A DNA stretch of 64,000 nt, taken from NCBI GenBank assembly GCA_024919215.1, contig CP103437.1:744001-808000 (forward strand), written 5' to 3'. Of the stretch, positions 2,386 to 33,933 are shown piece after piece. The notes under the pieces are model-generated. The model did not search any database, was not told where the DNA came from, and worked only from the letters and a program-made list of their open reading frames with translations. The DNA comes from Methylophilaceae bacterium LSUCC0665 (lineage in GTDB: Bacteria; Pseudomonadota; Gammaproteobacteria; Burkholderiales; Methylophilaceae). The translations under genes and the position numbers were made by a program. The stretch's first letter is position 1. Each line of letters begins with the position of its first letter.

Positions 2386-3843
2386 ATGCAAAAAATTGTA
2401 AATGAAATTGATATCGCCCTAGTTGGTGGCGGGATAATGAGTGCCACTTTGGCAACAATCCTGCATGAAATTGATCCAAAATTAAAAATTCATCTCTTTG
2501 AAAAATTACCCTCTTGCGGTGAAGAAAGTTCTGCTGCTCTTAATAATGCTGGCACAGGTCATGCAGGAAATTGTGAATTAAATTACACGCCTGAAAAAAA
2601 TAATAATATTAATATTAATAAAGCGCTTTCAGTATGCGAAATGTATGAACTATCCTTGCAATTGTGGGCATATGTTGTTAAAAATGATAAGAATATTCCT
2701 CCAGAATCCTTTATTACCAAATCATCGCATGCCAGTTTTGTATGGGATAAAGTCAATACAAAATTTTTAGAAAAAAGATTTAAGCTAATCAGTAAACAAC
2801 CACTTTTTAAGGGTATGACTTTTACTAAAGAAGCACAAAAAATTAAATCGATTTTTCCGCTCCTTATTAAAGGACGTATAAATGATGATAATATCGCTCT
2901 CACAAATTATGAATTCGGCACGGATGTTAATTTTGGTCAGCTAACATCTATCTTAATAAAAAGATTACAGAAGAATGCATATTTTAAGATACATACCAAT
3001 GAACACATATCCAAAATCAAAAAAATAAACAACTGTTACCATTTTCAAACTCAACTAGGTCAGATACATGCAAAATTTATTTTTTTAGGCGCGGGTGGAA
3101 ATTCTATTAAAATTCTTCAAGATCTCAGGCTTCCCCAAGCGAGAGGGTATGGTGGTTTTCCAATCAGTGGTAAGTGGTTAGTATGTGATAATAAAAATAT
3201 AATACAACAACATAAGGGTAAGGTTTACAGTCAAGCTGAAACGGGATCACCTCCTATGTCAGTTCCTCACCTAGATATTCGCAACATCAATGGAAAACAA
3301 TCATTACTATTTGGACCATTCGCTGGTTTCACGTTTAAGTTTTTAAAATCAGGATCTTTTTTAGATTTTCCCAGCTCAATTAAAATATCAAACTTAAAAG
3401 AAATCTTAACTGTTGGTATTAAAAATTTAAATCTCCTTACCTACTTAATAAAACAAGCCTTACAAAATCATAAAAATCGAATGAAACATTTAAGAAAATT
3501 TTATCCTGAGGCAAAGTCATCTGATTGGAAATTGATATCTGCTGGCCAAAGAGTACAGATCATAAAACCCTCAGACGGTTTGTTTGGTAAATTGGAATTT
3601 GGAACAGAGATTATTTACGATCACAAAAAAACACTAGCTGCCCTTTTGGGCGCATCACCAGGAGCATCAGTATCAGCAGCCTCAATGCTTGAAATTGTTG
3701 AAAAATGTTTTTTAAATCAAAATCAGGAATATACAAAAAAACTAAAGAAAATTTTTCCAAGTTATGGAATTAAATTAAATGACAATCCAGAGATGCTTCA
3801 AAAAGTGAGGAATTCCTACAGAAAAATTCTTAAACTATTGTAG
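2386..3843 (+). CDS. mqo: Malate:quinone oxidoreductase
   Basis: A 485-residue FAD-dependent, membrane-associated enzyme that oxidises malate to oxaloacetate and passes electrons to quinone, replacing or supplementing NAD malate dehydrogenase. The N-terminal dinucleotide fold VGGGIMSATLA starts at about residue 13. It is followed by the family signature SSAALNNAGTGHAG and later by QAETGSPPMSVPHLD, LLFGPFAGF and ALLGASPGASVSAASM. Length is normal for the family. The start is fixed by the FAD motif close to the N-terminus. It has no visible ribosome binding site. It converges on rlmB, and the two genes overlap by nine bases at their ends. Confidence 0.95.
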   Translation: MQKIVNEIDIALVGGGIMSATLATILHEIDPKLKIHLFEKLPSCGEESSAALNNAGTGHAGNCELNYTPEKNNNININKALSVCEMYELSLQLWAYVVKNDKNIPPESFITKSSHASFVWDKVNTKFLEKRFKLISKQPLFKGMTFTKEAQKIKSIFPLLIKGRINDDNIALTNYEFGTDVNFGQLTSILIKRLQKNAYFKIHTNEHISKIKKINNCYHFQTQLGQIHAKFIFLGAGGNSIKILQDLRLPQARGYGGFPISGKWLVCDNKNIIQQHKGKVYSQAETGSPPMSVPHLDIRNINGKQSLLFGPFAGFTFKFLKSGSFLDFPSSIKISNLKEILTVGIKNLNLLTYLIKQALQNHKNRMKHLRKFYPEAKSSDWKLISAGQRVQIIKPSDGLFGKLEFGTEIIYDHKKTLAALLGASPGASVSAASMLEIVEKCFLNQNQEYTKKLKKIFPSYGIKLNDNPEMLQKVRNSYRKILKLL

Positions 3844-4560
3844 CTTTCTTCTAATCTCAGCAACACAAATACCGGTTGCAACAGACACATTAAGGCTTTC
3901 AATAGAACCTGACATTGGGATTGAGAATGTTAAGTCACATTTATCTTTGGTCAGTCTTCTTATTCCCTTTCCTTCAGAACCCATAACTAAGGCAACATTT
4001 CCTGAGAAACTTTGATCGTAAATTGATAACTCAGAATAGCCATCAGCAGCATAAATAAAAAAGTCATGCTCTTTTAATAAATCAATGGTTCTTGATAAAT
4101 TTGTCACTGAAAAAAAGGGAATATGATTAACAGCTCCGCTTGCGACTTTTGAAACCACGGGGGTAATCCCAACAGAATTATTTTTTGGAACAATTATCCC
4201 ACTGAGATTAAAAGCGCTAGCAATTCTAAAACAAGCACCTAGATTATGTGGATCTTGAACTTCATCGAGGATCAAAAAGAAATGTTGCTTGATAGTATTA
4301 GCTAAAAAATCTTCAAGACTCAGTTTTGATAAAGAATCATTTTTACTCGATGCGGCAATAAATTGATGGTTATTGTCATTAAAGTTGTTCTTAAACCATT
4401 GAGCATCCATAAAACTAACTGGGATTTTATTTTTTTGGGCAGCTTCAATGACCCGCATCACTTTTTCTGAATTACGATCTTTACAAACATATAGTTGATC
4501 CACATGATTACCTCTAACGGCCCCATCAACTGAATGCATCCCATAAATTAAATTAGACAT
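3835..4560 (-). CDS. rlmB: 23S rRNA (guanosine-2'-O-)-methyltransferase RlmB
   Basis: A 241-residue SpoU-family (SPOUT knot) methyltransferase expected to methylate the ribose of G2251 in 23S rRNA using SAM. An N-terminal substrate-binding domain (YGMHSVDGAV and following) precedes the catalytic knot. The knot motifs are LDEVQDPHNLGACFR, VMGSEGKGIRRL and IPMSGSIESLNVSVA. It lies one base after rnr on the same strand, in the galU-hpt-rnr-rlmB set; the rnr-rlmB pairing is common in proteobacteria. The last codons overlap the end of mqo. Confidence 0.95.
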   Translation of the reverse strand: MSNLIYGMHSVDGAVRGNHVDQLYVCKDRNSEKVMRVIEAAQKNKIPVSFMDAQWFKNNFNDNNHQFIAASSKNDSLSKLSLEDFLANTIKQHFFLILDEVQDPHNLGACFRIASAFNLSGIIVPKNNSVGITPVVSKVASGAVNHIPFFSVTNLSRTIDLLKEHDFFIYAADGYSELSIYDQSFSGNVALVMGSEGKGIRRLTKDKCDLTFSIPMSGSIESLNVSVATGICVAEIRRKLQ

Positions 4561-31109: not shown

Positions 31110-32273
31110 TTAAATGTTTAAATCTGAAATAATATCTTCAATATGTTCCAGACCAACAGCGATTCGAACTAAACCATCATCTATTCCAGCATCATTTCTT
31201 TGTTCCTGAGTTAGGCGAGAATGAGTGGTTGTTGCTGGATGAGTTATAGTTGTTTTTGTGTCACCTAAATTCGCTGTAATTGACATTAACTTTGTTTTAT
31301 TGATGACTTGCCATGCAGCTTTTTGTCCACCTTTGAGAACAAAAGATAAGACAGCGCCCCCGGAAGATTGTTGTGATAAGGCAATTTTATGCTGTGGATG
31401 GCTTTTTAAGCCAGGGTAGTAAACTTGTGTAATTTTTTTATTTTTTTCCAGATAAGTCGCTAACTTCATTGCGTTATCTGATTGTTGGTCCATTCTAATT
31501 TTTAATGTTTCCAAGCCTTTTAAAAATACCCAAGCATTAAAAGGACTAAGAGAAACACCTGTATTTCTTAAAAAAGTATAGATCTCATTCATTTGTCTTT
31601 TTTTGCCAAGGACAGCACCACCCAAACACCTTCCCTGCCCATCTAGATATTTTGTTGCTGAATGAATAATGATATCTGCACCGTGCTCGATAGGTTTTTG
31701 CAAAGCCGGTGTACAAAAACAATTATCAACAATTAATTTAACTTTTTTTGATTTAGCCAATTGCGATAATTTTTTTAAGTCTACAATTTCTGTTAATGGG
31801 TTTGATGGAGTTTCAATAAAATAAAATTTAGTATTTTTCGTTGTTGCTTCTTCCCAGCAATTTAAATCAGGTAGATCAACAAAGCTAATACTTAGTCCCC
31901 ACTTAGCTAAAAAATTATTGAACAATTGAACAGAAGTGCCAAAAATACTTTTGGATACAACCACATGATCTCCAGGTTTACAAAGGGCCATAAATGTAGC
32001 CAGAATTGCAGACATTCCAGAGGAAGTAGCAATACATTGCTCTGCACCTTCAAGTGATGCTAACCTTTCTTCAAAAGTTTTTACTGTTGGATTGGTAAAT
32101 CGACTGTAGACATTCCCTGGCTCCTCACCAGAAAAACGTTTTGCTGCCTCTTGTGCATTCTTAAAAACAAAACTTGATGTGAGAAATAGGCCTTCTGAAT
32201 GTTCTCCAAATTGAGATCGTTCAATTCCTGCTCGTACCGCATCAGTTTCAAAATTTTTATTTTTATTTTTCAT
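31110..32273 (-). CDS. metZ: O-succinylhomoserine sulfhydrylase
   Basis: A 387-residue Cys/Met-metabolism PLP enzyme that makes homocysteine from O-succinyl- (or O-acetyl-) homoserine and sulfide. The PLP lysine is in SATKYLDGQGRCLGGAVLG. Other landmarks are SRFTNPTVKTFEERLA and ETPSNPLTEIVD. It uses sulfide made by the cysDNHI pathway encoded 12 kb away. It has its own promoter and a SAM-II-like riboswitch in the leader, so it should be repressed when SAM is abundant. The best Shine-Dalgarno (GAGG) lies 19 bases before the ATG, within the 3' end of the riboswitch. Confidence 0.93.
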   Translation of the reverse strand: MKNKNKNFETDAVRAGIERSQFGEHSEGLFLTSSFVFKNAQEAAKRFSGEEPGNVYSRFTNPTVKTFEERLASLEGAEQCIATSSGMSAILATFMALCKPGDHVVVSKSIFGTSVQLFNNFLAKWGLSISFVDLPDLNCWEEATTKNTKFYFIETPSNPLTEIVDLKKLSQLAKSKKVKLIVDNCFCTPALQKPIEHGADIIIHSATKYLDGQGRCLGGAVLGKKRQMNEIYTFLRNTGVSLSPFNAWVFLKGLETLKIRMDQQSDNAMKLATYLEKNKKITQVYYPGLKSHPQHKIALSQQSSGGAVLSFVLKGGQKAAWQVINKTKLMSITANLGDTKTTITHPATTTHSRLTQEQRNDAGIDDGLVRIAVGLEHIEDIISDLNI

Positions 32274-32290
32274 AACTCTGTTTAACAGAA

Positions 32291-32346
32291 TTCCTCAGTT
32301 TAGCTAAATTATGTTTGCGCTAGCAAGCTGGTGCAAATCAACGCGA
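32291..32346 (-). ncRNA. SAM-II-class riboswitch upstream of metZ
   Basis: This 56-base leader follows the SAM-II layout. P1 is GCGUU (32344-32340) with AGCGC. The conserved UGAUUU comes next, then CCAGCUUGC in the position of the P2 strand, then an A-rich linker, and finally UAGCUAAA. Loop CAG (32330-32328) can pair with CUG (32298-32296), immediately before GAGGA, giving the pseudoknot that hides the ribosome binding site. I compare it from memory with the known environmental metX SAM-II RNA, which has the same order and nearly the same spacing. The SAM-V class shares the fold, but its usual GUAC pairing is not seen. Expected action: SAM binding lowers metZ translation. Confidence 0.82.
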
Positions 32347-32350
32347 AGAC

Positions 32351-32379
32351 ATTATCTAAAAAAAAATTATGCAGGTCAA
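32351..32379 (-). promoter_or_regulatory. metZ promoter
   Basis: TTGACC (-35, 32374-32379), a 17-base spacer, GATAAT (-10, 32351-32356). Each box matches five of six consensus bases. It lies directly after the purF stop codon, and predicted initiation is at about 32344, exactly the first paired base of riboswitch P1. Confidence 0.75.
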
Positions 32380-33933
32380 CTAAAGCTCAAGGACTTCATC
32401 AACGTTGTCGTTATCTTCGTTCGTGATTAAATTTAAATCAAGTTGTGTAATTGAGTTTTTTGGTTTGAAATTTGCTGATGAATCTGCTCTTACTGACTCA
32501 ATCAAGTTAAGATAATTTTCATCAATGTCATCGGTAACGTAACGACCATCAAAACATGATGCGTCAAACTCAGTCAATTCTTTATTTTCTTTGGTCACAT
32601 TCTTTTTTAGAGCGTCTAACTCTTGATATATCACACCATCAGCACCTATTTCTTCACAGATTTCAGCCTCGGACCTATCGAAAGCAATTAGTTCATTACG
32701 AGAAGGCATATCAATCCCATATACATTTGGATATTTTACAGGTGGCGCAGCAGAGGCTAGAAAAACTTTTTTAGCGCCAGCATCACGCGCCATTTCAACA
32801 ATTTCTTTTGATGTAGTTCCTCTAACAATTGAATCATCAATCAATAAAACACTTTTTCCTTTAAATTCAATTGCTATTGGATTTAACTTTTGCCTGACTG
32901 ATTTTTTTCTTATCGCTTGACCAGGCATGATGAATGTTCGACCTATATATCTATTTTTAACAAATCCTTCTTTAAAATCTGTTTTTAACTTTTGGGCAAC
33001 TTGCAAAGCTGTTGGTCGGCTTGTGTCAGGAATTGGGATTACTACGTCGATCCTTTCATCTTTTAAAGATGATTTGATTTTTTCAGCTAATGTTTCACCC
33101 ATATTTAGACGTGTTTGATAAACTGAAACCCCATCGATGACCGAATCAGGTCTTGCCAGGTATACGTACTCAAATATACAAGGGCTAATTTTTTTATCAC
33201 TAACACATTTTTTAGAATAAAAATTTCCATCAAGATCAATAAATATTGCTTCACCCGGCTCCACATCTCTCAATAATTCAAAACCTAATACATCTAAAGC
33301 TACACTTTCTGAGGCGACAATATATTCCGGACCCTCACCCATTTCTCTTTTACCGATAACCAGCGGTCTAATGCCATGAGGATCTCTAAAAGCAAGCAAG
33401 CCAAAGTTTGCAATCATCGATACAACCGCAAAAGCGCCACTACATCTTCTATACAAAGAGGTTACAGCATCAAAAATCAAATCCGTTGTTAGCACACTTT
33501 TTTTTGATGAGTCGACAAGCTCATGAGCTAGCACGTTTATGAGAACCTCAGAATCAGAATTGGTATTGATATGTCTTAAATCTTGTTTAAACATATCTTG
33601 TTTTAGTTTATTAGAGTTAGTTAAATTACCATTATGTCCAAGAACAATTCCATAGGGTGAGTTGACATAAAATGGCTGAGCTTCAGCTGCAGATGAAGAT
33701 CCAGCTGTCGGATATCTAACATGTGCTATTCCAGCATTTCCAATCAAATTTCTCATGTGACGGGTCTGAAACACATCTTTTACAAGCCCATTATTTTTAT
33801 GCATGTAAAATCTATTACCATCTGTCGTAACAATTCCAGCCGCATCTTGACCCCTATGCTGCAATACTAAAAGTCCATCATATAACATCTGATTGACAGA
33901 ATTATTAGATACAATTCCAATCACTCCACACAT
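32380..33933 (-). CDS. purF: Amidophosphoribosyltransferase
   Basis: A 517-residue enzyme for the first step of purine synthesis, transferring glutamine amide nitrogen to PRPP. After Met removal, Cys2 (MCGVIGIV) is the N-terminal nucleophile of the glutaminase domain. The C-terminal transferase has the PRPP loop VLLIDDSIVRGTTSKE. The last 40 or so residues are acidic and variable. It shares one base with cvpA upstream (TAATG) and ends the nineteen-gene cluster; the metZ promoter begins at its stop codon. Confidence 0.97.
   Translation of the reverse strand: MCGVIGIVSNNSVNQMLYDGLLVLQHRGQDAAGIVTTDGNRFYMHKNNGLVKDVFQTRHMRNLIGNAGIAHVRYPTAGSSSAAEAQPFYVNSPYGIVLGHNGNLTNSNKLKQDMFKQDLRHINTNSDSEVLINVLAHELVDSSKKSVLTTDLIFDAVTSLYRRCSGAFAVVSMIANFGLLAFRDPHGIRPLVIGKREMGEGPEYIVASESVALDVLGFELLRDVEPGEAIFIDLDGNFYSKKCVSDKKISPCIFEYVYLARPDSVIDGVSVYQTRLNMGETLAEKIKSSLKDERIDVVIPIPDTSRPTALQVAQKLKTDFKEGFVKNRYIGRTFIMPGQAIRKKSVRQKLNPIAIEFKGKSVLLIDDSIVRGTTSKEIVEMARDAGAKKVFLASAAPPVKYPNVYGIDMPSRNELIAFDRSEAEICEEIGADGVIYQELDALKKNVTKENKELTEFDASCFDGRYVTDDIDENYLNLIESVRADSSANFKPKNSITQLDLNLITNEDNDNVDEVLEL

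Follow-up and report, generated by a model that had tools for sequence, protein, structure and literature searches.

The metZ leader in a 64,000-nucleotide (nt) stretch of DNA (the window) from Methylophilaceae bacterium LSUCC0665, a small-genomed methylotroph, carries an RNA that we take, with a probability of about 85%, to be a divergent S-adenosylmethionine (SAM) riboswitch of the SAM-II lineage that turns metZ off at the level of translation. All leader coordinates are given for the minus strand. The gene expected to be controlled, metZ (31110..32273), encodes an O-succinylhomoserine sulfhydrylase of 387 amino acids (NF006003, 656.8 bits, cut-off 522; TIGR01325, 569.7 bits, cut-off 510.05). 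The aptamer in front of it follows the order of SAM-II, consisting of P1 (GCGUU/AGCGC), GAUUU, CACCAGCUUGC, an A/U-rich linker, UUUAGCUAAA, and CUGAGGA. The 5′ strand of P1, GCGUU (32340..32344), is followed by UUU (32335..32337), the predicted third strand of a ligand-binding triplex, which aligns with U8–U10 of SAM-V, by CAG (32328..32330), the loop strand of the distal pseudoknot helix, and by UUGCUA (32321..32326), which combines the pocket bases UUG with the proximal pseudoknot strand GCUA. The A of the 3′ strand of P1, AGCGC (32317..32321), also lies within this proximal strand. Beyond the linker, UAGCUAAA (32299..32306) supplies the opposite strand of the proximal pseudoknot helix and the pocket bases UAAA, and the complement of CAG, CUG (32296..32298), forms the downstream strand of the distal helix. 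The G of this CUG is the first G of GAGGA (32292..32296), a candidate Shine–Dalgarno sequence 18 bases 5′ of the AUG, and the interval from GAGGA to the AUG can fold into a hairpin, AAUUCUGU-UAA-ACAGAGUU (32274..32292), without a U tract.

MetZ was found in 26 of the 31 genomes of the genus, and the leaders of 25 of them (L008–L032) were read, all of which contain the core and fall, by eye, into four types. Type A (8 leaders) is the form of the window, a SAM-II aptamer in which GAGGA overlaps the distal pseudoknot strand, and CAG and GAGGA are present in all eight. Type B (7 leaders) is a SAM-II aptamer with a terminator; type C (4 leaders) has the same arrangement and, beyond it, a SAM-V-like aptamer that includes a P3-like hairpin; and in type D (6 leaders) the only aptamer is SAM-V-like, and AGGA lies five bases 5′ of the AUG. 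"SAM-V-like" is our own label for type D, which lacks P3 and is matched by neither the SAM-II (RF00521) nor the SAM-V (RF01826) model of Rfam at E 1 (four leaders scanned). In the 26th genome (G005), metZ is cut by contig ends.

We assign the leader to SAM-II on its structure, its pocket, and its continuity with recognized members, its Rfam score lying below the threshold. Continuity was assessed with three covariance models (R1–R3), the short calibration of which makes the E-values rough. R1 was trained on aptamers of the genus, including that of the window, and its 56 bits for the window are consequently no proof. The 28 sequences behind R2 come from other genera; R1 had detected 20 of them and RF00521 the remaining 8, and 8 of the 28 exceed the Rfam cut-off. 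R2 gave the window 31.5 bits (E 1.5e-5 genome-wide; next site, 14.9 bits, E 0.5). Because R1, and through it R2, is not independent of the window's type, R3 was constructed as a clean test from 20 order-level sequences outside the family, each detected with RF00521 and 13 exceeding its cut-off. With R3, no site of the genome scores higher than the metZ leader (33.0 bits, E 2.5e-6), the runner-up reaching 16.3 bits (E 0.12), and this match represents continuity with sequences passing the RF00521 cut-off. The top 20 R3 hits across the 31 genomes are all metZ leaders, comprising seven of type B, that of G005 (also detected with R2), four of type C (first aptamer), and eight of type A (E 7.2e-7 to 7.0e-4); outside the metZ leaders, no hit does better than E 0.014.

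The pocket was compared in an alignment of 32 aptamers from the genus (A1; 25 from metZ leaders and 7 from island-like loci), from which L010, L011, L012, and L031 were left out as near copies and in which both members of each tandem were counted. UUU, UUG, and UAAA are identical in 32/32, as are UUGC and GCUAAA, motifs that belonged to the pattern used to excise the aptamers, the 25 leaders having already been read beforehand. By alignment, UUU, UUG, and UAAA are the equivalents of the SAM-holding bases of SAM-V (PMC6061858; this and the other papers are cited from partial text), and, with ligand contacts transferred from this closely similar structure, the equivalents of U8–U10, U19, U20, U47, and A48–A50 are invariant in all 32 aptamers. 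P1 is paired in 93.0% of cells, with three rows shifted by one base counted as unpaired, and has a covariation score of 0.618 compared with 0.284 in shuffles (0/500 as high), slid versions of P1 scoring 0.025 to 0.227; three of five measures exceed every shuffle. A sequence-only reading of this DNA had proposed a SAM-II-class aptamer before metZ, and this proposal is sustained by these results, through R3, the pocket, and P1 rather than through the Rfam models.

Several observations count against this interpretation. When restricted to the local stretch, RF00521 aligned the SAM-II core in register but gave 15.4 bits (E 0.16), against a gathering score of 36. At gathering level, Rfam reported a tRNA and nothing else within the window, and the site was also absent from the seven weak hits (best, 13 bits) of a genome-wide RF00521 search. 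Under R2, an unplaced hit in G024 (E 0.006) was at least as good as that of the type A genome G007 (E 0.006). Two of the P1 measures lie within shuffles (both-side changes, 149/500; further pair types, 500/500), and covariation of the proximal helix, tested on 7 distinct types, is modest, its two pairs beyond GC/GC forming in 11/14 cells (permutation fraction 0.017). The window has C where SAM-V has A18, the partner of the SAM-holding A50. GAGGA and the AUG are separated by 18 bases in the window and by 25 bases in L013–L015, which is long for a normal site, and in the nested minimum-energy fold of the ligand-free leader GAGGA is not clearly accessible (pairing along it, 0.85, 0.68, 0.44, 0.12, and 0.79). 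The promoter match described below is, taken alone, within chance (3 sites in 701 bases vs 2.0 in shuffles). The RF00521 gathering score was reached in 0/31 genomes of the genus, and since loose-E hits of RF00521 and RF01826 also arise in 10 and 9, respectively, of 14 control genomes, such hits prove nothing by themselves.

Directly 3′ of the stop codon of the upstream gene purF (32380..33933; TIGR01134, 525.5 bits, cut-off 350) lies a sigma-70-like promoter with 10 of 12 consensus bases, composed of a −35 hexamer TTGACC (32374..32379), a 17-base spacer, and a −10 hexamer GATAAT (32351..32356). Its credibility comes from conservation in relatives and not from the scan score alone. By eye, the promoter is conserved in all eight type A leaders (TTGACC in 8/8; GATAAT or CATAAT in 8/8), and TTGAC is found in 5/7 type B leaders. 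The sequence-only reading had named this promoter and had placed the start of transcription at the first base of P1, and we agree on both, with a predicted start near 32344. The leader is about 71 bases long from there to the metZ ATG at 32273, and not 56 bases as first given. The proposed CAG/CUG pseudoknot is confirmed in its complementarity and its overlap with GAGGA, but CUG shares a G with GAGGA instead of lying just before it. It had further been suggested that the element isolates metZ from read-through; the gene does appear to have its own promoter, but no terminator-like site was called in 32000–32700, and nothing visible there would stop read-through from upstream. Transcripts arising in this way would include the aptamer as well, and masking could then still take place.

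In the mechanism that we infer, including its ligand, its direction of control, and the role of the hairpin, transcription would start at P1. When SAM is scarce, the third strand would be loose and GAGGA reachable, allowing metZ to be translated. When SAM is abundant, it would insert in a triplex formed by UUU, UU, and UAAA and fix the pseudoknot, and the CAG/CUG helix would then cover the start of GAGGA, turning metZ off. The hairpin between GAGGA and the AUG probably shortens the path from the ribosome site to the start codon, or else is a terminator remnant. In the group of the window the spacer alone has −4.5 kcal/mol, with a fraction of 0.003 of 300 letter shuffles as low, and the 8 pairs of the window's hairpin, if fully folded, bring GAGG almost to the AUG. 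Other hairpin sequences occupy the same place in L013 and L014 (−6.5; 0.010 and 0.000) and, weakly, in L015 (−2.8; 0.057).

Alternatively, the SAM-II aptamer could act mainly at transcription, as it does in the relatives, for example via Rho after a translation block, and the small hairpin would be a weak terminator remnant. A terminator-like hairpin was called 3′ of the aptamer in 49 of the 54 other leaders tried, by a loose script without chance control (the five without a call are L100 and the tandem loci L021, L022, L023, and L025, the latter four showing a stem by eye), and the window has a hairpin at the matching place. However, no U tract follows this hairpin, the scan calls no terminator there, and GAGGA is kept beside the aptamer in every type A leader; we thus consider control mainly at transcription unlikely. 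In type B, the aptamer strand CAGCUUGCGGG is complementary to the arm and loop of the terminator and is a possible antiterminator; ≤2/100 shuffles are as stable in 5/7 type B leaders, compared with 14 and 19 in L020 and L028.

It is highly improbable that the window RNA belongs to SAM-V and not to SAM-II. The two have in common the translational masking and equivalent pocket bases, the proximal helix GCUA/UAGC is as in the SAM-V-like group, and SAM-V-like RNAs precede metZ in sister clades. Nevertheless, RF01826 has no match at the site up to E 10 and passes its cut-off in 0/31 genomes of the genus, the linker AAACAUAAUU contains, by eye, no stem corresponding to the P3 hairpin between P1 and P2, and R2 and R3 match the window but not the SAM-V-like type D leaders. 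The best hits of these two models in type D genomes lie elsewhere (R2, E 0.03 to 0.51; R3, E 0.03 to 0.29, with none in G021).

A translational SAM-II aptamer of a metX gene is known from a crystal structure, and we take this to be the Sargasso Sea RNA of PMC9373788. Most SAM-II RNAs are transcriptional, and this rare translational one has its distal helix near the Shine–Dalgarno sequence, as does the window, but its distal helix is 2 base pairs (bp) long, compared with the three contiguous CAG/CUG pairs here, and the window has a hairpin before the AUG (PMC6061858). The long distal helix of SAM-II is not present in the window; it is 5 bp in 60% of SAM-II (PMC6061858) and is not universal there either. 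With RF00521, the window shares the H-type pseudoknot order, GAUUUG ... GCUUGC ... GCUAAA, the pocket bases, and a met gene, and it differs in its score, its short distal helix, and its translational layout. Sinorhizobium meliloti metA provides a precedent for a SAM-II Shine–Dalgarno sequence acting at a distance, in that the controlled site and the start codon are 74 nt apart there and enclose a terminator hairpin (PMC9373788). The succession of a Shine–Dalgarno sequence in the aptamer, a hairpin, and a distant AUG is the same in both, whereas S. meliloti has 74 nt and a functional terminator where the window has 18 nt and no U tract.

Leyn et al. (2014; PMC4239095) reported a previously undescribed, terminator-bearing RNA, the metXZ element, from 35 beta-proteobacterial genomes, where it precedes metX or metZ; in three Methylophilales species the gene is metZ. 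In the portions of that paper available to us, SAM_alpha is confined to Rhizobiales and Rhodobacterales and metXZ is not equated with it; a literature search for "metXZ" treated as a riboswitch yields this paper alone. The metXZ element resembles the window in having metZ as its gene and a pseudoknot of its regions 1/4 and 2/6, and differs in its terminator. Judging from the paper's text, it is very probably the same beta-proteobacterial RNA as found here, i.e., SAM-II. Although this element was published without a named ligand and SAM is a predicted ligand in the window, a conserved RNA of the same fold binding something other than SAM is highly improbable in view of the identity of the SAM-holding equivalents in 32/32 aptamers and of downstream genes that are largely met genes.

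When a quick tree of metZ is rooted with 8 outgroup rows, types A, D, and C each form one group (100, 100, and 97, respectively), and type B forms two pieces at the base. The unrooted rpoB (7/8 genomes), gyrA, and purF trees likewise unite type A with a support of 100. The simplest reading is that the terminator is ancestral and, as we infer, was lost once in type A (8 genomes). A single clade of types C and D, united by the metZ (97) and purF (87) trees, is not recovered with gyrA and is rejected by rpoB (p-AU, the approximately unbiased test, 0.005), and because of this conflict the order from tandem to SAM-V alone is tentative. Tandems as such are known, with 149 SAM-II/SAM-V tandems and 44 SAM-II doublets reported (PMC9481103). 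More tentatively, and with considerable doubt on our part, the metZ leader of this one genus might record a riboswitch changing class, with SAM-II and SAM-V as the ends of one lineage and the tandem as a replacement stage. The forms in this reading would be SAM-II with a terminator (ancestral), SAM-II masking the ribosome site (the window), the tandem of SAM-II and a SAM-V-like aptamer, and the SAM-V-like aptamer alone. Their source could be the SAM-V-like aptamers found on island-like stretches of the genus, which resemble the tandem's second aptamer in sequence. A viral source was rejected, two patterns giving 0 hits in viral contigs and one aptamer being unmatched in phages; a literature search for SAM-II or SAM-V in phage found nothing.

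At E 0.05, R1 matches 169 of the 187 genomes of the family and 22 of its 24 genera, with gene context checked for a minority of these hits, and the RF00521 cut-off is passed in 2/187. In the order, 51 of 300 genomes pass the RF00521 cut-off and 136 have a hit at E 0.001, compared with 0/14 controls. A MetZ-like open reading frame (ORF) lies downstream in 27 of 44 hand-picked loci (two at 34% identity and one over only 49 residues), and at the hand-picked loci of the family it follows 19 of 24 (L075 and L086 being the same place). Other downstream genes are metX at L106 (over the NCBIfam cut-off) and metH at L113 (E 7.1e-136 for a fragment that stays under the cut-off); by resemblance, L097, L100, and L116 look like metX and L110 like metH. 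For OM43 strain H5P1, the available text reports a single riboswitch, for cobalamin, and thus no SAM switch (PMC9004378). Transfer, which the sequence-only reading had suggested beside a wider distribution, is rejected in its form from alpha-proteobacteria as the leading explanation on the family-wide and order-wide occurrence, and SAM-II was already in print as commonest in Alpha-, Beta-, and Gammaproteobacteria (PMC2704228). With so many carriers in the family and the order, transfer is not needed, and vertical inheritance explains the window aptamer better. SAM-II-like aptamers with a terminator also precede short non-metZ ORFs at L086, L091, and L095 (genomes G080 and G159), and both of those in G159 pass the Rfam cut-off.

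Related aptamers were seen at other loci. Outside the genus, L094 and L098 have, by eye, SAM-II with a terminator followed by a SAM-V-like aptamer, before ORFs lacking an assignment, and in L101 the second aptamer is SAM-II-like (by eye). In the type A genome G007 (L171, 7956–8342 and neighbours), a SAM-V-like aptamer precedes an ORF of 127 amino acids without a Pfam match, the listed start of which overlaps the aptamer; the neighbours encode a phage-type integrase, a C-5 cytosine methylase, and an NgoPII-type restriction endonuclease, and the aptamer is likely a SAM sensor beside a SAM-using enzyme. The CCAACUUGC form of the SAM-V-like aptamer (L117–L141) occurs, according to record titles, in Advenella, Pelistega, Comamonadaceae, and others. 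It lies before a protein with a SAM synthetase N-terminal domain in a Spirochaetales metagenome-assembled genome (MAG; L138) and before a metY-type gene in a gamma-proteobacterial MAG (L135), another (L137) being alike; among eight scanned, Rfam lists only L135, as SAM_alpha below the cut-off. In a Rhodospirillaceae MAG (L132), a SAM-I/IV riboswitch over the Rfam cut-off lies about 380 bases 5′ of a SAM-V-like aptamer on the same strand (the two regions, 3433–3490 and 3874–3977, minus strand).

Altogether, a published beta-proteobacterial element without an assignment is, very probably, linked to SAM-II, and the Rfam model passes very few of the family genomes in which a fitted model finds the RNA. 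With four natural layouts before one gene in one genus, a shift of control from transcription to translation, and of class from SAM-II to SAM-V, becomes open to direct testing.
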